Assembly (NCBI RefSeq): GCF_027887165.1
Contig: NC_077233.1
Coordinates: 215,486,967-215,550,966, forward strand
From: Monodelphis domestica
Taxonomy: Eukaryota > Chordata > Mammalia > Didelphimorphia > Didelphidae
Reading direction: 5' to 3'
Length of the DNA: 64,000 nucleotides
Of this stretch, positions 16,122 to 42,130 are shown one piece after another. How positions within the stretch are numbered: position 1 is the first letter of the stretch; the number at the start of each line of letters is the position of its first letter. The notes beneath the pieces were generated by a model. That model was not told where the DNA came from, did not search any database, and was given only the letters and a program-made list of their open reading frames with translations. Made by a program: the position numbers and the translations under genes.

Positions 16122-19100
16122 AAAAAATTGTAATACATGATATCTGACAAAACCAAAGCACAAATAGACCTGATCAAAAGGGATAGGGAAGGTAAATATA
16201 TTCTGTTAAAAGGGAATATAGACAATGAGGAAATATCACTAATCAACATGTATGCACCAAACGGAATAGCATCCAAATTTCTAATGGAAAAACTAGGAGA
16301 ATTGAAGGAGGGAATAGACAATAAAACCATATTAGTGGGAGACTTGAACCAACCACTATCAAATTTAGATAAATCAAACCAAAAAATAAACAAGAAAGAG
16401 GTAAAAGAGGTGAATGGAATCTTAGAAAAATTAGAGTTCATAGACATATGGAGAAAAATAAATAGGGACAAAAAAGAATACACCTTCTTTTCAGTACCAC
16501 ATGGCACATTCACAAAAATAGATCATACACTAGGTCATAGAAACATGGCACTCAAATGCAGAAAAGCAGAAATAATAACTGCAGCCTTTTCAGATCACAA
16601 GGCAATAAAAATATTGATCAGCAAGGGTACATGGAGACCCAAATCAAAAATTAATTGGAAATTAAATAACATGATACTCCAAAATCGGTTAGAGAAGAAA
16701 TCATAGAAACAATTAACAATTTCGTTGAAGAAAATGACAATGGCGAAACATTCTTTCAAACCTTATGGGATGCAGCCAAGGCAGTACTTAGAGGAAAATT
16801 CATATCCCTGAGTGCATATATTAACAAATTAGGGAGGACAGAGATCAAGGAATTGGAAATGCAAATGAAAAAACTTGAGAATGAACAAATTAAAAACCCC
16901 CAGAAGAAAACCATACTAGAGATCCTAAAAATTAAGGGAGAAATTAATAAAATCGAAAGTGACAGAACTATTAAGCTAATAAACAAGACTAGAAGCTGGT
17001 ACTTTGAAAAAACAGACAAAATAGACAAAGTACTGGTTAATCTAATTAAAAAAAGGAAAGAAGAAAGGCAAATTAATAGCATCAAGGATGAAAAGGGGAA
17101 CCTCACCTCCAATGAAGAGGAAATTAAGGCAATCATTAAAAACTACTTTGCCCAACTATATGGCAATAAATATACCAACCTAGGTGATATGGATGAATAT
17201 TTACAAAAATATAAATTGCCTAGACTAACAGAAGAAGAAATAGTTTTCTTAAATAATCCCATATCAGAAAAAGAAATCCAACAGGCCATCAAAGAACTTC
17301 CTAAGGAAAAATCCCCAGGGCCTGATGGATTCACCAGTGAATTCTATCAAACATTCAGAGAACAGTTAATCCCAATACTATACAAATATTTGACATAATA
17401 AGCAAAGAGGGAGTTCTACCAAACTCCTTTTATGACACAAACATGGTACTGATTCCAAAGCCAGGCAGGCCAAAAACAGAGAAAGAAAATTATAGACCCA
17501 TCTCCCTAATGAATATAGATGCAAAAATCTTAAATAGGATACTAGCAAAAAGACTCCAGCAAGTGATCAGAAGGGTCATCCACCATGATCAAGTAGGATT
17601 TATACCAGGGATGCAGGGCTGGTTCAACATTAGGAAAACTATCCACATAATTGACCACATCAACAAGCAAACCAACAAGAACCACATGATTATCTCAATA
17701 GACGCAGAAAAAGCCTTTGATAAAATACAACACCCATTCCTACTAAAAACACTAGAAAGCATAGGAATAGAAGGGTCGTTCCTAAAAATAATAAACAGTA
17801 TCTATCTGAAATCATCAACTAATATCATCTGCAATGGGGATAAACTAGATGCATTCCCAATAAGATCAGGAGTGAAATAAGGATGCCCATTATCACCTCT
17901 ATTATTTGACATTGTATTAGAAACACTAGCAGTAGCAATTAGAGAAGAAAAAGAAATTGAAGGCATCAAAATAGGCAAGGAGGAGACCAAATTATCGCTC
18001 TTTGCAGATGACATGATGGTCTACTTAAAGAATCCTAGAGATTCAACCAAAAAGCTAATCGAAATAATCAACAACTTTAGCAAAGTTGCAGGATACAAAA
18101 TAAACCCACATAAGTCATCAGCATTTCTATATAATTCCAACACAGCTCAGCAGCAAGAACTAGAAAGAGAAATCCCATTCAAAATTACCCTAGACAAAAT
18201 AAAATACTTAGGAATCTATCTCCCGAGACAAACACAGGAACTATATGAACACAACTACAAAACACTCTCCACACAACTAAAACTAGACTTGAACAATTGA
18301 AAGAACATTAACTGCTCATGGGTAGGACGAGCCAATATAATAAAAATGACCATCCTACCCAAACTCGTTTATCTATTTAGTGCCATACCCATTGAACTTC
18401 CAAAATTTTTTTTTACTGATTTAGAAAAAACCATAACAAAGTTCATTTGGAAGAACAAAAGATCAAGGATATCCAGGGAAATAATGAAAAAAAAATAGAA
18501 AGGAAGGGGGCCTTGCAGTCCCAGATCTCAGACTGTATTATAAAGCAGCGGTCATCAAAACAATTTGGTACTGGCTAAGAGACAGAAAGGAGGATCAGTG
18601 AAATAGACTCGGGGTAAGTGACCTCAGCAGGACAGTACAAGACAAACCCAGAGAACCCAGCTTTTGGGATAAAAATACACTATTTCATAAAAACTGCTGG
18701 GAAAATTGGAGGACAGTGTGGGAAACATTAGGTTTAGATCAACACCTCACACCCTACACCAAGATAAATTCAAAATGGGTGACTGACTTGAACATAAAGA
18801 AGGAAACTATAAGAAAATTAGGTGAACACAGAATAGTATACATGTCAGACCTTTGGGAAGGGAAAGATTTTAAAACCAAGCAAGACTTAGAAAGAGTCAC
18901 AAAATGCAAAATAAATATTTTTGACTACATCAAATTAAAAAGTTTTTGTACAAACAAAACCAATGTAACTAAAATCAGAAGGAAAGCAACAAATTGGGAA
19001 GCAATCTTTATAAAAACCTCTGACAAAGGTTTAATTACTCAAATTTACAAAGAGCTAAATCAATTGTACAAAAAATCAAGCCATTCTCCAATTGATAAAT

Positions 19101-20075
19101 GGGCAAGGAACATGAACAGGAAGTTCTCAGCCAAAGAAATCAAAACTATTAATAAGCACATGAAAAAGTGCTGTACATCTTTTATAATCAGAGAGATGCA
19201 AATCAAAGCAACTCTGAGGTATCACCTCACACCTAGCAGATTGGCTAACATGACAGCTATGCAAAGTAATGAATGCTAGAAGGGATGTGGCAAAGTAGGG
19301 ACACTAATTCATTGCTGGTGGGGTTGTGAATTGATCCAACCATTCTGGAGGGCCATTTGGAACTATGCTCAAAGGGCAATAAAAGACTGTCTTCCCTTTG
19401 ATCCAGTCATAGCAGTGCTGGGTTTGTACCCCAAAGAGATAATAAGGAAAAAAAACTTGTACAAGAATATTCATAGCTGCACTCTTTGTGGTGGCCAAAA
19501 ATTGGAAAATGAGGGGATGCCCTTCAATTGGGGAATGGCTGAACAAAATGTGGTATATGTTGGTGATGGAATACTATTGTGCTAAAAGGAATAATAAAGT
19601 GGAGGAATTCCATGGAGACTGGAACAACCTCCAGGAAGTGACGCAGAGCGAAAGGAGCAGAACCAGGAAATCATTATATACAGAGAATGATACACTGTGG
19701 TACAATCAAAGGTAATGGACTTCTCCATTAGGGACAATGAAATGTCCCTGAACAATCTGCAGGGATCTAAAAAGCACTATCCACAAGCAAAGGATAAACT
19801 GTGAGAGTAAAAACACCGAAGAAAAGCAATTGCTTGACTACAGGGGTTGAGGGGATATGACTGAGGAGAGACTCTAAATGAACACTCTAGAGCAAATACC
19901 AACAACACGGAAATGGGTTCGAGTCAAGAACACATGTGATACCCAGTGGAATCATGTGCCGGCTATGGGAGAGGTGGTGGGAGGGGGAGGAGGGAGGAAA
20001 AGAAAATGATTTTTGTTTCCAATGAATAATATTTGGAAATGACCAAATAAAATAATGTTTTAAAAAAAGTAAGGG
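16122..20075 (+). mobile_element. 5'-truncated L1 retrotransposon
   Basis: The element starts inside the ORF2 endonuclease, at the residue equivalent to about 78 of the copy at position 1-286. It runs through the reverse transcriptase, the C-terminal domain and a 3' UTR to an A-rich end near 20070. ORF1 and the 5' UTR are missing, typical of incomplete target-primed reverse transcription. The 3' UTR begins after 19715 and includes a G-rich 'gggagggggaggagggagga' stretch. Confidence 0.95.
16137..19715 (+). pseudogene. L1 ORF2 (endonuclease and reverse transcriptase), disabled
   Basis: Order of parts: rest of the endonuclease (16137-16704, with LINMYAPNG, VGDLNQPLS, FFSVPHGTFTKIDH and SDHKAIK); linker (to about 17150); reverse transcriptase (about 17200-18100, with [38 protein letters not shown] and [12 protein letters not shown]); C-terminal segment with Cys-rich CGKVGTLIHCWWGCELIQPF (about 19270-19340); stop at 19713-19715. 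The catalytic FADD box is intact at 18001-18012. Damage includes frame breaks near 16690 and 17395, a TAA at 17878-17880 within SGVK-GCPLSP, a TGA at 18298-18300 and a TAG near 18497. It cannot make a functional polyprotein. Confidence 0.95.
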
Positions 20076-21434: not shown

Positions 21435-22655
21435 CAACAATAATAACAACAAACATTTATTAAGCACCTATCTTGTGCAAACACAAAAAAATATTTCCTG
21501 CCCTCAAGTAGTTGCAGCATACAGCATGTGCATACATACAAAGCCAATACAAAATAATTTTGAGATGGAAGGAGTGTGCCATTTCCAAGGGAAATGGTAA
21601 AAGGCTTTATGTGGAAGACAGTGCCCAAACTGTGCTTTGAAACACATAGAAGGCAGTCTATGAGACTGAGGTGAGGAGGAAGTCATTCCACATTCAGGAT
21701 AATTTCCACTAAGGCAAAAAGGTAGAAGATGGAATATCACATATGGGGAACAGCTGGTAGCCCAGTTTGGCTGGAACACAGAGAGTGTGAAGGGAACTAA
21801 TATACAATAACCCAAGGAAAATAAGCTGGAGCCAGATCGTGAAAGGCTTCAAATGCCAAACAGAGGAGTTTTCATTTTATCCTAGAAGCATTGGGGAGCC
21901 ACTGAGCAGGAAAGGGACGTGGTTAGACCTGTATTTTAGGAAGTTTATTTTGGTCGCTGTGTGGAGTATGGGTAGAATAAAAAAGTAACTGAAAGCAGGA
22001 AGACCAATTAAGAAAATATTGTCGTAATTAGGGGAGAAATAAGGAAAGGCTATGTGAGTAGAAAGAAGGGGAAGATGCTAGAGATACTGCAAAGGTGGGA
22101 TTCACAAGATGTGGCAGCTGATTGGAAGTAGAAGTTACAAGACAGAGTCCCAGAGGACTCCAAGGTTGTGAGAATGAGCATGGTCCACAGAGATCCTTTC
22201 AAGCTGTCCATGAGGTGAAAACTATTTTCATATATAACCTGGTCTTCTCTGGACATGCCCAGTTCTAACAAGGAGGTGCCCTTGAGGAGCCTTTGAAACA
22301 TGTTCCCCCCTTTGTCTAAAATGGAAGTGTGAATGAAATGAGGATAGTGCCATCAAAAGAAATGAGGAAGTTTGGAGATAGGGTGGATTTAGGGGAAAAT
22401 ATAATGAATTCTATTTTAGGTATATTAAATCTGAAATGCCTTTGGGACATTTGGTGAATATTATATAGGTAATATAGCACTATACTTCAGTCTAGAAATT
22501 ATGACTGGATATATCTAGATTTGGGAGCTATTCATAGAGACAATAATTGAACACATTGGCATCTATGATATTCCCATGGGAAAATGATTAGGGAAAGGAA
22601 ACAAGAGAGGAGGAGATGAAAATGGAAAGAGCAGTTAGGGACACCCAGACTTAGT
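21435..22655 (+). repeat. Long ancient interspersed repeat, left part
   Basis: It begins with 'acatttattaagcaccta', a motif shared with 30978, 42505 and others. It continues with 'tcaaatgccaaacagaggag', 'attggggagccactgagcag' and 'cccagaggactccaaggttg'. The same order recurs in part at 30970-31430. I recognise it as an old mammal-wide repeat but cannot name the family with confidence. It continues beyond the LTR chimera, at 25152. Confidence 0.65.
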
Positions 22656-22659
22656 GGTG

Positions 22660-23321
22660 TGGTATTTAAAATGGTTGAGATATAAATTATAGTAGATATA
22701 AGAGTGGGTGAGTAAATTTGTGACTGCAGAAAATATGTTTCACTACAGTGTCTTGGTTTTAAATCAAATATAAAGTGGTCGCCAGGGAAATATTCCCAAT
22801 TATGAATATACCCAAGTCAACTGGGTTTTATAGAGAATTTAATTAATAATACAATGAGGAATTAAAGAAAGAGTAAGAAAGGAATAAGTATGAAGGGCCT
22901 TAAGCCAACATGGCCTAGACCTGAGTCTTAAGAGAGAGAGATCAGTCAGTCAGTCTTTTATCACTCACCACAAGGTCTGTCTAAGCAAGGATTCTAGTGA
23001 CACCAGGCCAGCTCCATCTCAGCTGACTTCACCAGAGAGAGTTCCAGCCAGAGTCCTCCTCAAAGAGAGATCCAGCCAGAGACTGTTTCAAAGGGCCTCT
23101 CTCCAGAGCCTCCAGATGGACAGAGTCCCCTCAGAGGAGCTCCAGCGAGTCCTCCTTAGAGATTGTCCTCCAAGAGCTTCCCTTCTCCAGAGCCTCTCTC
23201 AAGAGATTCTTCCCAAGTGATCCTCATCAGAGAATTCTCCAAAAGGCTTCCCTTTCAAGCGATCTCCAAAAGAATCTCCTTCCAAAAGCCTCCAAAAGCT
23301 TCTAAAAGCATCTCTCCAGAG
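22660..23321 (-). mobile_element. ERV LTR, R-U5 part only (U3 missing)
   Basis: It aligns with 24100-24605 of the complete LTR to the right. Shared blocks include 'gtggtcgccagggaa', 'atgaatatacccaagtcaac', 'ccaacatggcctagacctga' and, at the junction, 'aaaagcatctctccagag'. The LTR reads right to left. This copy lacks everything upstream of the predicted start site. Its R region is about 150-200 bases longer owing to extra CCAGAG-type repeats. Its outer end (about 22660, TG in plus orientation) matches the end of the complete LTR but carries one terminal repeat unit rather than several. The right edge overlaps the ADAM17 segment by roughly 8-10 bases. Confidence 0.78.
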
Positions 23322-23678
23322 TGGCTCTATGTTATATTCTGCCCCATCTGTATTGATTCTTACTGTAAAGTCATCATCACCTATATGGGCCAGAACTCTG
23401 GAGTTGTGTTCACCCACTACATGCCCTGAGAAGAAATCTTGCCATTTTACAGGATATTCTTGCTCTTCTTTCCCATCCACAACCAATACTTTGAAATTTT
23501 GTGAAAAGCGTTCAGCACTTGATGTTAGATATACCTTAAAATGTCTATTTAAGGCTGAAAAAGTAAATAATCTTTCTAAATGTGATGCTGTCTGTAGATC
23601 CCTTTTCCTCAAGTCATGTTGCTAGATGTTTGACAAAGAAAGGATATCATAATCTGACAGCATGGAATCAAGCTTCTC
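23312..23678 (-). pseudogene. ADAM17: ADAM17 (TACE) prodomain, spliced cDNA fragment
   Basis: ADAM17 is the membrane metalloprotease that sheds TNF and EGFR ligands; its prodomain keeps the zymogen inactive. The minus strand encodes 122 codons collinear with human residues about 33-154, without gaps: EKLDSMLSDYDILSLSNI, then [54 protein letters not shown] and [14 protein letters not shown]. No intron is present although this span should cover several exons, so it derives from mRNA. A TAG at 23624-23622 replaces Gln51. The protease, disintegrin and membrane parts are absent. The downstream end fuses directly to LTR sequence, and the upstream end joins ADAM17 exon 1 in the opposite orientation. 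It is not functional. Confidence 0.93.
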
Positions 23679-23991
23679 ATTCGGAGGGTGGGAGTCCTGA
23701 CTGGGCCTGTCCGGGTGTGGGCGGTCGCGAGCCACGGGACTGAGCTGGGGGGACGGAGCGTATGGTTCTCGCGGGAAGTTGTCTTTCACCCCCAACTTTC
23801 CGGGGGCCAGTGAGTTAGTGGCTAAAGGGGGTGGCAGTGAGGAAGGAGAGGAGCTTGGGGCCAGGTCTTGGGTGCGAGCCGAGCCCCAGGCCCCAGAGAA
23901 GGAAAAGTTTTCGGGCCACCAACATGAAGTTATGTGTCCTAGTCTTCTCCAGCTGCTTTACCCTGCTGCTGGTGAGAAGACCCCCAGACGG
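23679..23991 (+). pseudogene. ADAM17: ADAM17 5' UTR and signal-peptide exon, inverted
   Basis: This GC-rich, CpG-containing block reads on the plus strand, opposite to the adjoining prodomain. An ATG at 23924, in a 'gccaccaacATG' context, starts MKLCVLVFSSCFTLLLV and then RRPPD. The hydrophobic signal is the right length, and RPPD falls at residues 19-22, exactly where human ADAM17 has RPPD. The upstream 245 bases look like a 5' leader. Homology stops near codon 22-23, where a primer-binding-site-like sequence begins. The signal peptide itself is poorly conserved, so the call leans on position, RPPD and the neighbouring prodomain. The alternative is a retroviral leader that mimics it. Confidence 0.68.
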
Positions 23992-24009
23992 GTCCCTTCG
24001 TGGTCACCA
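23992..24009 (-). promoter_or_regulatory. Retroviral primer binding site, tRNA-Arg type
   Basis: On the minus strand this reads TGGTGACCACGAAGGGAC. It is complementary to the 3' end of vertebrate tRNA-Arg(UCG) plus CCA at 17 of 18 positions, as I recall that tRNA. It starts five bases after the CA end of the complete LTR, the expected place for the site that primes minus-strand synthesis. Confidence 0.72.
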
Positions 24010-24014
24010 TAAAC

Positions 24015-24160
24015 TGTTATAATTAAAATAGTTGTCTGCCATAAACTGTGGCAATTAAAAGAGTTGGGGTCATAAACTGTAAGAGTTAAAATGGTTGATG
24101 TTGTAAACTGTAGTGAGTTAAAATGGTGGAAGATATAAATTGTGATAGATATAAGAGTGG
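24015..24160. repeat. Minisatellite at the U5 end of the LTR
   Basis: About five diverged units of 31-33 bases, each beginning 'ataaactgt' or 'taaactgt' and containing 'ttaaaatggttg' or similar. The left LTR copy has only about one unit at the matching place (22660-22690). Confidence 0.8.
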
Positions 24161-25151
24161 GTGAGTAAATTATGACCGCAGAAATTGTTTTCACTACAGT
24201 GTCTTGTTTTAAATCAAATATAAGGTGGTCGCCAGGGAATATATTCCCAATTATGAATATACCCAAGTCAACTAGGTTTTATAGAGAATTTAATTAATAA
24301 TACAATGAGGAATTAAAGAAAGAGAGAAAGAGTAAAAAAGGAATAAGTATGAAGGGCCTTAAGCCAACATGGCCTAGACCTGAGTCTTAAGAGAGAGAAA
24401 ATCAGTCAGTCTTTTATCACTCACCATAAGATTTGTCTAAGTAAGGGATTCAGAGGGACAGAGTCTCCCCAGAGGGAGTTCCAGCCAGAGTCAGCCTCCC
24501 TTGAGAGACCTCCTTAGAGAATTCCTCCAAGAGCTCCTCTCAAGTGATCTTCAAAAGAATCTCCTTCCAAAAGCCTCCAAAAGCCTCTAAAAGCATCTCT
24601 CCAGAGATTCTCCAAAAGGATTGTCCTCCAAGAGATTCTGCTTTTTCTTATATAGGGGGTTTTCTCCTATGTCACCTCCCCTGAGTCCTTATATCTACCA
24701 ATCACAGTAGACGTTTTCCAAAGGACAACCCATTCTAAAAACACTGCTAGGTCAACTATTCCCTTTAGGAGAAAACCTCTGAGTAAGTTTGAACCAGAGA
24801 AAACACAGCTGAGTCGACTAATCCCCTCAAGAGAAAACCTCTGAATAAGTTTTCACCTCTTTGCTCCTGGCAAGTTTACAAGTTGCCCAACCTTTATAGG
24901 TACCTAAGCATCCCATTGTATCAATTCTAAAAACAGGCATGGCTCAAAGAACTCCCTGCCTCATCATAAGCATGGATCCAAGTACTTTCATTGTTTAGCA
25001 AAGAGTTTTCTCCCCTAAAGCAGTCTTAAGTACGGGTAGAGTAGAGGTCCTCCCATTTCTGATCCTGGTGAGTTCTCACAGTCAAAATGGGGAATGTTCC
25101 TAGTAGGGAATTGTTCCAATTGAGAATTCCCCGATGGGGAAATTTTTAACA
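24015..25151 (-). mobile_element. Complete ERV LTR (U3-R-U5)
   Basis: In minus orientation it starts TGTTAAAAATTTCCCC (25151) and ends with CA (24016-24015). U3 has an inverted CCAAT motif near 24698 and a TATA box, TATATAAG, at about 24654-24647. Transcription should start near 24620. R is built of CCAGAG/CTCC-rich degenerate repeats. ATTAAA-like polyadenylation signals lie near 24290. U5 ends in a tandem array of about 31-33 base units with a 'cataaactgt' core. A primer binding site follows, so this is a 5' LTR in layout. No gag, pol or env is present in the window. Confidence 0.82.
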
Positions 25152-26830
25152 TTCACAAGTCTGAGAAATTTCAAGATTTACAATGGGCAGGTCAAATAGG
25201 TTGGACAAAAGCTAATACAGAGTTCTATCATAGAAGTCAAAGAGGAGAGAATATTGAGGAGGAAAGAAAGCTTTAAAGTGGTCAAGAAGGAGATCAAGAA
25301 TAAGACTGGGGGGGGGGGGAGGAACAAACCAGAACTTAGCTCTCTGCCAAGTTACCGATAAAGTTGTGACATGATTGGTAATCTTACAAAGAGCAGTTTC
25401 AGTTAAGTGTTGGGTTTCTTTCTTAAGAAACCAGATTAGAAAGGATTAAGAACTAACTGGGGGGTAAGGAAAAGGAGGCAACAAACAAAGCAACCTTTTC
25501 TAGGAATTTAGCTATGAAAGAGAGAAGGGAGGGGAATCACACACACAATATATCTTGATGGGGTAGAAATTTCAAATGGATTTTTTTTAAAAGATAGAGA
25601 AAATGGGATTTTTAAAGGCAGTTGAGAAGGATCCAATAAATAAGGCAAGAATGAATATTAGAAAAAGAAAATGATAGAGGAAAGTGAACTCTCAGAGGAG
25701 GTGGGAGAAGATGGGATCAATAGCACAAGTGGAGGGATTAACCTTGGCTAGAAAGTATACCACTTCACCAAAAACTGTAACAGAGGATAATTAAATGAGG
25801 GATGGAGAAGGAGTTTGGGGTTGTAGAATGAAAAAAAGAGGATCCTCAAGATATATGGCATCTAATTTCTTAGTTAAATAAGAGATGAAATCCTCTGCTG
25901 AAAGGGAGGAAGAGGTTCCATTAAGAAGCATAAGGAGAAGGCAGTTATGTGACTCAGTGGATAAGCAATGGGTCCTTCTCAACTGCCTTTAAAAATGGGA
26001 GGCCCTGAGTTCTAGCCTCAGATACTTTCTAGCTATGTGATACTGGGCAAGTCACTTAACCCCCATTGCCTATCTATTACCTCTTTTCTGCTTTGGAACC
26101 AATACACAGCATTAATTCTAAAATGGAAAGTAAGGATTTTCTTTTAAAGAGGTATAAGGAGAGAGGAAGTTTGCAATTGTTATTGCAGAGAGTATGATAG
26201 ATAATCAGGAAAGGAAAAAAGAATTACTATGTTCTAATGAGAGCCTACATGAGAGAACAAATCATAAATATGTCACATACAGGGCATAGTTGAGCAACTT
26301 TCTCCAAGGATGTTTGACAGCATTTGAAGAGGAACAGAGAAGACAGTAAGAATAACCCAGGGCTGGGGTTTGGCAATTTGAGTCTGACCATAGGACGAAG
26401 ACACAGGGGATTTAAGAATAATTGGCAGGGTATATCTGAACTGTTCAACCACATATTTCACAGAGACTGTGAAAGAAGAGAAAGAAGGCCAGTAATGGTC
26501 ATTGGGAAGAACAGCAAGAAATGGAAGTAATAGAGCTCACAGGAAGAAGAAGAAACTAAAGGAAATATCATAGGATTGCAGGTAAAGGCTAGAAAGAATT
26601 ATAGAATGCTGAATCATGGCAGTAGAACAATCATGGGTGACAGTGAGATAGATCAGGGATATGACCATGAGGTCCATGAAGTTGGCATTCATGGGAATTT
26701 AAGAGATTCTGGGAAATTAAGAGATTCTGGGAGACCAGGGTGTTTGGACCTGGGTCAAGAAGTATCTTGGTCTCAAGTATGTGGACAGCTTCTAAAGTGA
26801 AAAGATGGCTAGGACTTAGCTAGAAATATT
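25152..26830 (+). repeat. Long ancient interspersed repeat, right part
   Basis: It resumes the pattern interrupted at 22655: 'gtcaaagaggagagaatatt', 'ggaagaaagctttaaagtgg', 'agaaaccagattagaaagga' and 'ggaggcaacaaacaaagc'. A run of Gs lies at about 25308-25318. No coding frame is supported; the frames at 26324-26530 and 26576-26800 have no domain. The right boundary is uncertain. Confidence 0.5.
25935..26160 (+). repeat. tRNA-derived marsupial SINE
   Basis: Sense copy with a 'cctgagttctagcctcagat' segment, 'gtgatactgggcaagtcact', 'ttggaaccaatacacagcat' and a 3' 'aaaatggaaagtaaggattt' end. The 5' third is rearranged. Confidence 0.85.
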
Positions 26831-33972: not shown

Positions 33973-35766
33973 CAATGGGAACTATGGGCCTGCTTTTGGC
34001 TAATGAGATGGTCAATGTCCAGTTCCATATTTGTCACTGCTAGCAGTAACAGGTGCCACAAGTGTGCATCAGGCTAGATCTGGTTGGATATTTCAGATGT
34101 TTCATTCTGGAAAAAGTCTGTTCACCAACATAAGTGCTGCCAAAGATGGTTGCCATTTTGAGTTCCTGAGATTAGGATATGTCTCAGAGGGGAGAGATGC
34201 ATAGAAATTAGGTAAGCTGCTTGACTTGAATGTGTCTTTCAGAGAGTCATAATTCTGCAATTCAGACAGTTCCATTTGGTAAATTGTATCCACATTTTCA
34301 ATGTCAATAGAAAATGGATTACAGAAAAACTATGTCCTGTTCATGGAGATGAAGCTCTTTAAATCTGAATTGGAACTCCTTTTGCAACTTTTCCAGTGAA
34401 TCCACACGTGTTTCTTTTGGGAATATAATCAAGGGTTTTTCTGTTAACAGATTTTTGAGTTAAGGGGAGATGGCAGAAATTTCCCTCCTTCATTTGGTTG
34501 ATAAGGAGGCCTAATTTTATTTCAAATACTTTCACATGTGATTGCATATCACAGATGAGCTTCCCTTTTCCTTGAAGTTGCACATTAAAACTGTTGAGTA
34601 GCTCTGTTACATCTGTCAGAAAGGTGAGGTGCCATTTCCATTCTGCATCATTGAGCTCTGGTACTTCTTTGATTTTTGAAAGCATAAAAGCTGTAATCTG
34701 TGTAAGTAAGTCATAGAAATGTCTCAAAACTCTCCCTTGACTCAGGCAACAAACTTCTGTGTGGTACAGAACATCTTCATAGGCAAAATTTAGCTCAGAC
34801 AGAAATTCCTGAAATTGTCTGTGGTTTAGTGCATTAGCTCTGATGAAGTTAACACAAGATACCACAATTTTCATAACAGAGTCCCACTTCAGTGATTTAC
34901 TACATAGCAGTGCATTTTGGTGGATAAAGCAATGTATGGCTATTGGATGAGAATGGTTACATTTCTCCATCTCTTGGTTAATTTGAGCAATTACTCCTTT
35001 CTTAGACCCCATCATGCTAGGAGCACCATCAGTTGTCACACTGGCTAGTTTAGTCCAGTCCAGTCCCAAATCCTTCACAGTTGGGAAACCTTCTCATAGA
35101 TATCCTCTCCTATAGTTGTTCCTTTGATGCTTTGCAGTGAAGCAAGTTCTTCTGTGACTTTGAAATTGCCATTTATCCCACGAACAAAAATTAGACGTTG
35201 TGCAGAATCACAAACATCGTTGTTCTCGTTGAGTGCCAAGGAAAAATAGGAAAGTTTTCTTGTGGAGTTTTGCAAATGCTGATGCAAATTGTCTCCCATT
35301 TCTTCAATCCTTCGTAATTATAGATCCTGAAAGACTAACTGTACTAAATAAGTCTGCCTTTTCTGGACACATCTCTTTGGCAACAGAAAGAAGGCACTCT
35401 TTAACAAATTCTCACTCTACAAATGGTCTGCCAGTGCATGCTATTAGCTTGGCAACTTGAAAACTTTCTGGCAGTGATGAAATATTTAGCTGCTTCTGCT
35501 TCATAAAAGTATTTTGCTGAGTTGTCAATGTATTTTTCAGTTTCAATATTTTATCTTTTCTCACATCTCTGACCAAACAATCATATTTATCTTTATGTTG
35601 AGTTTGATAGTGTTGATGCAAATTATATTCTTTGAACACAGACACTATATTCTGGCATATCAAACACACAGCTCTTTCCTTGTACTGCATGAAAAAGTAA
35701 TCATAAATCATAAAGCTCTTTGAATATCTGACACTCCGAGTCAATTTTTCTCTTTCTTGATGTCAT
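33973..35766 (-). pseudogene. hAT (Charlie-type) transposase, inactivated
   Basis: The frame starts at the ATG at 35766 ([18 protein letters not shown]) and ends at the TGA at 33975. N-terminal BED-type zinc finger: CLICQN plus HQHYQTQH (about 35580-35660). RNase-H-like core: FSLALNEN (about 35230), RLIFVRGINGNFKVTEEL, GTTIGEDIYEKV and VTTDGAPSMMGSKKGVIAQI (about 35000-35055). C-terminal dimerisation motif FGSTYVGEQTFS (about 34105-34150), then LWHLLLLAVTN and LDIDHLISQKQ. The pieces lie in several frames, with a stop near 35412 and frameshifts near 35080, 35300, 35720 and 34300. The first catalytic Asp, expected in an ALDES-like motif, reads Asn here. It cannot be active. Confidence 0.9.
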
Positions 35767-40569: not shown

Positions 40570-42130
40570 TTTTTTTTTTTACTTTTTAAATTTCACTGTT
40601 TATTTGTATATTTTACAATTAGATATGCAACATATAGTTCAATGCAAAATAAATAACAATAATCCATGGCAATTTGTTGCTTTCAACAACATGTAGTTTT
40701 GTGCTTCATAGAATGATCAAAACAAGAAAAAATTCTAGGGTTTATAAAATGGAAAAAAATTTAAAAATCAAGGAAAATGCAGCCTAACACTAGATACATA
40801 ATTTGAATTTAGTTAAGGATATCAAGATCCATCATATTTTTATTACATTGATGAAACATCTAAAATAGTCTTTAAAAGTATAACATCAGAATTAAGTTCA
40901 CAAATACTTCCTAAAATAAAGGCAACACACACAAAATTCAGTATGTGGAACATATTTGCAAATGTGAGTTTAAATTTTGCAGAAGAGCCATTGTTAGGAA
41001 TTATGTCCTTCTATCTTCTCCAGCTGCTAACCCAGTGTTCTGAACTTAGTAAATGCTTTAAGGATGCTTACTTGAATTCAGACCTCTTCTTTAAATCAGT
41101 CATTCTTCCTTACAAAATCTTCTCCAAGAGGTTTTAAGAAAAAAAAAATTAATTATAGAACAGGTTTACATAAGTAAGTCTCACCCATAGTAAATGATAT
41201 AATGATTACTACTTAGGTTATTTGCTTTTTAAAAAACAAAAATTGTTATAACTCCTTCATTTTTGGTTGGCATAACTGGTGGATATAAAAATGTAAGCGC
41301 ACAGATACATCTGCAATCCACTGTCAGGTCTTTTACACAATCGATACCAGATGATGGTTTTTTGGCAAGCTCTTGCACAGAACCTCTGACAACACAACTT
41401 TCGAATGTGAAAATGTATTTTTAGATCTCTATTGCAGTCATTATAACATCTATTTTCCAACATATTCCTTGCTACAGAGCCATGTGTGTATTTAGACAAC
41501 AAACGACTAATTATATTCTTACGATGAATGTGTTTGTAACCTTTTATTTGCATTGAAGAAACTAAAAGTTTATTTTGATGCAGTCTACATTTTAAAAGCA
41601 CATTTAATAACTATACTTGTGGCTCATCCTCTATAACTTTTAAGCAACCTGCACTTTACTTTACTTTCCATCATTCCCAGTCTCCAACAGTGAAAGATGG
41701 TCTGTAGAGCAGATCTTCTTCACTCAGTTCCTCTAAGAGACCACAAAGGGAGTTTTCCTTGCTCGGGCTAGCCGTTCCAGTATTCCAAGTGTACAATTCC
41801 CATCTCATTCATCTGTAATTTTATATCCATAAGCAGCTAGTTGACCAGCCATATACTCTCCATCTGAATTATTGTGAGAACAACCCCATGTCCGTATCCA
41901 AACTTTCTGAATACCAGGAATAGTGCTATCACTTGGCGGATCATCTTCCTCTTGCAAACATTTTTGAGAATTAGGTATTTGCACCTTTGGAACAATACTT
42001 TTTCTTGAAAAATATCTATCCTGAGGCTTTGAATCTTCTCTTGACCCAATATCTCCTATGTCTGCAAGTGGTGAATCACAAAATGCAGCAGGCATCTTCC
42101 CTTGAAATTCTGGAATTTGTCTCACTTCCT
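40570..42130 (-). pseudogene. CDKAL1: CDKAL1 retrocopy with foreign 3' part and poly(A) tail
   Basis: CDKAL1 is a radical-SAM methylthiotransferase that modifies tRNA-Lys(UUU). The minus strand from the ATG at 42095 to 41814 encodes about 94 residues of its N-terminus without introns: [53 protein letters not shown] and [19 protein letters not shown], containing the first Cys of the UPF0004 domain. The frame then hits TGA at 41807-41805, and the sequence is no longer CDKAL1. About 1.2 kb of other sequence follows, ending at an AATAAA (complement of 40599-40604) about 18 bases before a poly(A) tail (poly(T) at 40570-40580). It looks like a retrocopy of an alternatively terminated transcript. 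The radical-SAM and TRAM domains are absent, so it is not functional. Confidence 0.88.
41805..42125 (-). CDS. CDKAL1: Open frame over the CDKAL1-derived N-terminus
   Basis: The frame is uninterrupted for 106 codons from an upstream ATG at 42125. The authentic CDKAL1 start is more likely the ATG at 42095, because the ten preceding residues read as 5' UTR. Conservation of [20 protein letters not shown] is nearly complete, so the copy is young or was constrained. Whether it is transcribed is unknown. Without the radical-SAM cluster it would have no enzyme activity. Confidence 0.6.

Follow-up and report, generated by a model that had tools for sequence, protein, structure and literature searches.

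How a piece of a spliced cellular mRNA can come to lie between retroviral long terminal repeats (LTRs) with its first exon turned round is the question raised by a locus on the minus strand of the window analysed here, i.e. the whole 64-kb stretch of DNA (64,000 nucleotides of Monodelphis domestica, G000:C7:215486967-215550966), where sequence of the gene ADAM17 is enclosed by LTR sequence of an endogenous retrovirus (ERV). The anatomy of this chimera and its comparison with other members of the family suggest that it probably arose in a retroviral particle, where the plus- and the minus-strand strong-stop DNAs each served as a primer on a single ADAM17 mRNA before their 3′ ends were joined.

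Read on the minus strand, the chimera consists of an LTR (25182-24015), the pentanucleotide GTTTA, a primer-binding site (PBS; 24009-23992), antisense ADAM17 (23991-23710), sense ADAM17 (23715-23313) and an R-U5 segment (23321-22658), and its outer ends are TG...CA. As judged from other copies of the family, the left LTR is a complete U3-R-U5 unit with its own TG...CA ends, starting with TGTAAATCTT at 25182 and ending with AACA at 24015; an earlier sequence-only reading had likewise called it complete and had placed its start at 25151. It contains a TATATAA box (24648-24654), from which R would start, by a rule of thumb, at about 24629-24623. The GTTTA spacer (24010-24014), again defined from other family copies, separates it from the 18-nucleotide PBS TGGTGACCACGAAGGGAC, defined from the family copies and further PBS sites, the final C of which doubles as a letter of ADAM17. 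The PBS is putatively of the tRNA-Arg type; an ARAGORN scan of the 64-kb window found zero tRNA genes. Next come the 5′ untranslated region and the first approximately 23 codons of ADAM17, antisense to the LTRs (23710-23991, plus strand; positions 613-893 of the parent locus L007), and, at the inversion, the 6-nucleotide microhomology CCCGGA (23710-23715). By comparison with the parent, the sense part (23313-23715) comprises the end of exon 1, exons 2-4 and the first 12 nucleotides of exon 5; it is intronless, extends to about codon 154 and carries an in-frame stop (TAG, where the parent has CAG). A 9-nucleotide microhomology, CTCTGGAGA (23313-23321), finally leads from exon 5 into the right R-U5 (22658-23321), which lacks U3, begins about 20 nucleotides inside the predicted R and belongs, according to alignment and trees, to an LTR subfamily unlike that of the left LTR. 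The PBS, the inverted leader with signal-peptide codons and the R-U5 without U3 had all been recognised in the sequence-only reading, as had the intronless sense part, for which, however, codon 33 instead of codons 20-22 had been given as the start.

Searching the assembly (3.59 Gb in 13 contigs) with positions 23312-23991, as that reading had proposed, yielded the window itself and the exon pieces of one parent gene at about 538.456-538.478 Mb of C1, a contig other than that of the chimera (C7). No second copy of the ADAM17 chimera was found by this search, in which match counts are lower bounds, and the idea that it might have been mobilised as a unit gained nothing from it. The antisense exon 1 matches the parent over 281 nucleotides with 95% identity, and exons 2, 3 and 4 over 134, 135 and 90 nucleotides with 97, 100 and 99%, respectively; since each piece maps to a separate place in the parent gene, the copied RNA was spliced. 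Exon 5 of the parent, located by a motif, lies 2.6 kb downstream of exon 4; its translation resembles the ADAM17 prodomain, and on this likeness we take the gene to be ADAM17.

The three junctions can be placed on this parent. At the first, the PBS ends at 23992 and antisense ADAM17 goes on from parent position 893 downwards with one base (C) in common, or with 4 nucleotides (CCCG) if the primer strand ran past the block in the tRNA, as two other PBS sites (L047 and L050) suggest. At the second, CCCGGA stands at the inversion and occurs in the parent both at 613-618 (as the reverse complement) and at 885-890, and at the third, CTCTGGAGA is common to ADAM17 exon 5 and R. The switches thus show microhomologies of 9 nucleotides at R and 6 at the inversion, but of only 1-4 at the PBS. 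Because the sense half starts within 885-890 (codons 20-22) and the antisense half at 893/894, the two halves abut on the mRNA with an overlap of at most 10 nucleotides, which suggests that both cDNAs shared a single mRNA; no codons are missing between them, contrary to the gap previously assumed between codons 1-22 and 33 onwards.

The order of the strong-stop transfers is given in PMC12789967. We infer the following events, their succession and their confinement to a single particle, which would have contained an ADAM17 mRNA together with two ERV RNAs, each from a different subfamily. Minus-strand DNA begun on the tRNA would have run through U5 and almost the entire R of one ERV RNA before switching at CTCTGGAGA onto exon 5 of the ADAM17 mRNA and copying this towards its 5′ end. 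Plus-strand strong-stop DNA of the other lineage, comprising U3-R-U5 and the PBS copied from the tRNA, would have annealed with its PBS end to ADAM17 exon 1 instead of the minus-strand PBS, and would also have copied towards the 5′ end of the mRNA. The first strand would have stopped where the second sat annealed, and both antisense DNAs may then have paired by their 3′ ends via CCCGGA, each acting as the template for the other, so that U3-R-U5-PBS came to be followed by antisense exon 1, sense exons 1-5 and R-U5. Integrase would finally have used the U3 end of one strand and the U5 end of the other, producing a 4-bp duplication. The full 18-nucleotide PBS with antisense ADAM17 starting at its final base counts in favour of such priming from two sides, and a right arm without U3 that begins some 20 nucleotides inside R is expected of a nearly complete minus-strand strong-stop DNA. 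The right U3 would be missing, and the two R-U5 segments unlike, because the strand forming the right end never made the first jump to the 3′ R.

That two viral RNAs took part follows from the two R-U5 segments, which belong to different LTR subfamilies. When they were compared, as had been suggested, both proved to carry R-U5 but differed at 80 of 482 aligned letters. In an IQ-TREE phylogeny of 29 genome copies from 30 LTR loci, into which the window's own locus went as W5 and W3, a clade of five (support 100/98) contains the left R-U5, and a topology in which left and right are forced to be sisters is rejected by the approximately unbiased test (p-AU 1.6e-33; the FastTree result was known before this test was done). 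A right R-U5 from a subfamily other than that of the left LTR points to a second nascent DNA. For the left and right R-U5, IQ-TREE gives terminal branches of 0.028 and 0.020, and FastTree of 0.021 and 0.032, respectively. Sense ADAM17 differs from its parent by 7 substitutions in about 400 nucleotides (1.7%), two of them at CpG; this count leaves out the first two of 9 computed substitutions, which lie in the lead-in before CCCGGA, as well as 4 gaps, two at the ends and two at manually cut exon joints. The antisense half has one indel and 14 transitions in 280 nucleotides (5%); of these transitions, 8 are at CpG. As the terminal branches of 2-3% are close to the divergence of ADAM17, the pieces, while unlike at birth, most likely entered the genome together in one event, to judge from these sequence comparisons.

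The flanks are in line with integration by LTR ends. The LTR family makes a 4-bp target-site duplication: both ends were found in 18 of 29 other LTR loci, and their 4-bp flanks agree at 4/4 positions in 10, at 3/4 in 3 and at two or fewer in 5, with at least 2 of these 5 poorly matching loci (L018, L029) being copies with internal sequence after the LTR. Compared with these, the chimera has the candidate duplication CCAT (25183-25186) on its 5′ side and CCAC (22654-22657) on its 3′ side, a 3/4 match; a match of 3/4 or better is expected by arithmetic in 13 of 256 random pairs (5%). Together with the outer TG...CA, these flanks agree with the earlier proposal that the ADAM17 cDNA was integrated as a unit with LTR ends and with exon 1 inverted behind the PBS. 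The flanks themselves, the microhomologies at the inversion and at R and the differences between the two R-U5 segments had gone unnoticed in the sequence-only reading.

Joining of antisense sequence to the PBS end is not confined to this locus. A search for exact matches to TTTATGGYGACCACGAAGGGA, which covers 17 bases of the 18-nucleotide PBS, yielded 26 places (reversed control: 0), with C as the 18th base in 18 and T in 8, and at 10 of them related products occur: five with antisense LTR, three with antisense host RNA and two direct fusions to U5 or R-U5. In the first group (L044, L052, L061, L063, L065) the PBS is followed by antisense R/U3 of the LTR itself, and three of these loci (L044, L061, L065) are joined at the final six PBS bases, AGGGAC, opposite GTCCCT in R. 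Besides the window's own chimera (L066), the second group comprises L046, where approximately 390 nucleotides of antisense 18S rRNA (300 bits) are joined at AGGGAC and followed by inverted U3 (67% identity), and L049, where 820 nucleotides run antisense to a host gene that encodes a DUF4455 domain (E 1.9e-23). The insert of L049 corresponds to six pieces, read as exons, across 25 kb at C1:467.475-467.501 Mb (90-98% identity), and the parent strand at its joint reads TGGCGGAAACCACGGAGGGAC, which is nearly the PBS itself, so that this mRNA mimics the pairing partner of the PBS. The third group contains L048, in which LTR and PBS are followed by the last 17 nucleotides of U5 only, within a perfect AGAC duplication, thereby showing the rescue step without an insert, and L054, in which a U5 piece and the PBS are followed by sense R-U5 ending in AACA.

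The other 16 of these 26 sites include sense pol (L057, L068) and a PBS that has no copy of this LTR upstream (L059), the rest being viral or tRNA-extended leaders, members of other LTR families and unassigned stretches (e.g. L055, L060, L067); L056 was left out of the count of products, as the antisense stretch after its PBS, which we take to be L1-like, may be plain flank. A looser PBS pattern with at most 2 mismatches found 124 places (control: 0), 67 of which were read, namely the 26 exact ones, L039 and 40 more (one mismatch in 23, two in 17), each of the latter over about 320 nucleotides past the PBS. Four of these 40 lead into antisense LTR (L086, L094, L105 and, by its likeness to L086 and L105, L073), one leads into about 54 nucleotides of the sense U5 end, as in L048 (L099), and one into sense 18S rRNA (230 bits) and then inverted U3 (L103).

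There is about an even chance that priming of both strong-stop DNAs on cellular RNA is a distinct and recurrent route by which retroviruses fossilise such RNA. On this route, the PBS end of the plus-strand strong-stop DNA would mis-anneal to RNAs that resemble the 3′ end of the tRNA and would copy them in antisense, and the product would be rescued for integration by joining a nascent minus strand. L048, L054, the LTR itself, 18S rRNA, the mRNA of the DUF4455 gene and the doubly primed ADAM17 might then be read, with as much to be said for as against it, as one series.

Of the alternatives, serial template switching by one minus strand fares best and is nevertheless unlikely. Such a strand would have passed from R-U5 to the ADAM17 mRNA and from there to an antisense ADAM17 RNA, a promoter antisense transcript, that was already joined to the 5′ end of the ERV, its PBS and LTR. 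Two of the three junctions show the microhomology that this would leave, and switching of this kind is the route described for LTR-mediated retrocopies in PMC5408686. However, it requires the second, antisense RNA, the junction of which would need to coincide by chance with the final PBS base and to lie no more than 10 nucleotides from the break in the first RNA, and it leaves unexplained why RNAs as varied as 18S rRNA, the DUF4455-gene transcript and the LTR are joined in antisense at the PBS end. The second switch that the sequence-only reading had mentioned as an option thus comes closer to the structure than the fold-back named beside it, yet two primers on one mRNA need fewer assumptions and explain every junction.

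That fold-back, by which a single nascent strand would have snapped back and copied itself, is considerably less probable still. The pairing at CCCGGA could indeed be intramolecular, and L044, L061, L063 and L065 resemble fold-backs of an LTR strand. But a strand primed from the PBS that folds back can only be copied back to its own PBS, which it would regain after a few ADAM17 nucleotides, and a sense run to about codon 154 is thereby excluded; a snap-back of the other strand would have produced codons 23-154 as an inverted repeat and would have lacked a PBS. As neither structure is seen, a simple snap-back was rejected, an additional switch being needed to save it. It is slightly less credible again that an ordinary LTR retrocopy was rearranged after insertion by local inversion, gene conversion or recombination with another LTR: recombination could account for the unlike subfamilies at the two ends, but one end of the inversion falls on the PBS, the outer flanks are still duplication-like (3/4) and the terminal branches agree in age. 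Hardly any weight remains for an L1 twin-primed ADAM17 pseudogene between LTR pieces or for LTR pieces of different insertions since, although L1 twin priming yields 5′-inverted retrocopies of mRNAs (PMC2912911), the former was rejected for its lack of a poly(A) tail, its 3′ end in exon 5 that is joined to R by the 9-nucleotide match and the LTR-type ends at both outer borders, and the latter for the similar age of the parts and the 5′ junction on the PBS, in agreement with the sequence-only reading, which had favoured a retroviral reverse transcriptase over L1.

Several observations weigh against the formation of the chimera from two strong-stop DNAs on one mRNA. The flanks CCAT and CCAC form an imperfect duplication, the start of the right arm about 20 nucleotides inside R means that the switch did not take place exactly at the end of the RNA, the right R-U5 has L031 and L027 as nearest relatives in the IQ-TREE phylogeny without falling into a strongly supported clade, and the antisense half is more diverged from the parent than the sense half (5% vs. 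1.7%). Parent position 613 is at most a candidate for the ADAM17 cap site; a YY1-like AAGATGGCGG motif lies about 90 nucleotides upstream. Pairing of the PBS end with ADAM17 is weak, with 1 or 4 nucleotides in common. When pairing was anchored at the junction and scored against control positions, scores of 13 (L049), 8 (LTR sites), 6 (ADAM17) and 6 (18S rRNA) were reached or exceeded by 0.5, 0.07, 1.2 and 6.8% of these, respectively, the shares for L049 and 18S rRNA being rough because their controls were small (200 nucleotides and a shuffle of 18 nucleotides); ADAM17 is thus the weaker of the two mRNA cases. Seven of the 10 related products (L044, L046, L049, L054, L061, L063, L065) have, within the sequence read, a normal LTR end on one of their two sides missing and hence demonstrate misuse of the PBS but not the rescue step. 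Among the 67 PBS sites read, 40 of them only to about 320 nucleotides past the PBS, none besides the chimera showed the complete five-part architecture.

LTR-mediated retrocopies were reportedly described by Tan et al. in Genome Research in 2016. According to PMC5408686 and PMC8232201, they are host mRNAs copied by the reverse transcriptase of an LTR element, with LTR ends, switches at microhomologies and no poly(A) tail; PMC5408686 adds that they arise through microsimilarity and reports the finding of Tan and coworkers that L1 dominates in mammals. The chimera shares with them the intronless multi-exon host mRNA, LTR sequence at both ends and the microhomologies, together with the 3/4 duplication, but it lacks two LTRs that were alike at birth and both equipped with U3: its cDNA is partly inverted, its switch points would be those of two strong-stop DNAs, its right LTR has no U3 and its LTRs represent two subfamilies. 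It is therefore a variant and not a standard member of this class. In L1 twin priming, according to PMC2912911, two primers act on one L1 RNA and their cDNAs anneal at short complementarity, leaving the 5′ segment inverted. This anatomy is also that of the chimera, the single RNA being suggested by the abutting ends; however, the marks of L1 processed pseudogenes, a poly(A) tail and a long target duplication, are absent, the primers would be retroviral strong-stop DNAs instead of cut target DNA, with the left arm ending in LTR-PBS and the right one consisting of R-U5, and integration would have occurred by LTR ends with a 4-bp duplication. In retroviral oncogene capture, host sequence is placed between LTRs via template switching. 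The chimera, in contrast, has no viral genes, contains an inverted piece and gives no sign of remobilisation, no other copy having been found. Among the titles and opening abstract lines of the open-access literature searched, none was found that reports strong-stop DNAs of an endogenous retrovirus acting as primers on host mRNA. If the origin proposed here from two strong-stop DNAs is correct, host RNA is captured in the germ line by the plus-strand, or second, transfer as well as by minus-strand switching, and inverted exons between LTRs require no snap-back; the signature of LTR, 18-nucleotide PBS and antisense host RNA can be searched for in genomes, and the fate of misplaced strong-stop DNAs becomes testable from fossils.

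Some further features of the family were seen at these sites. The DUF4455-gene transcript captured in L049 (G000:C2:345934150-345937170) starts with LTR R that is spliced from a donor in U5 (CTTGTG^GTGAGT) to a host exon (AG^GAATCTC), and to judge by this joint, the insert would derive from a host transcript that was driven by the LTR and then underwent reverse transcription in its turn. L046 and L103 are ERV chimeras in which different segments of 18S rRNA, antisense in L046 and sense in L103, are each followed by inverted U3. L057 and L068 have the PBS joined at the identical point to sense pol, presumably its RNase H region, which may reflect a shared deletion or a repeated event, and L022/L023 are tail-to-tail LTRs of the same family without a PBS. 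In L047, L050, L051, L062, L072, L097 and L101, 13-20 additional nucleotides follow the PBS, the first base past the 18 nucleotides being C, C, T, A, C, C and T, respectively; they look like the complement of the same tRNA, possibly by read-through of a modified tRNA base.

Elsewhere in the window, open frames on the plus strand (16137-19279) are presumably those of an L1-type endonuclease/reverse transcriptase, and frames on the minus strand resemble a hAT/ZBED-type transposase-derived protein (34359-35744) and CDKAL1 (41805-42125), the latter possibly being another retrocopy.

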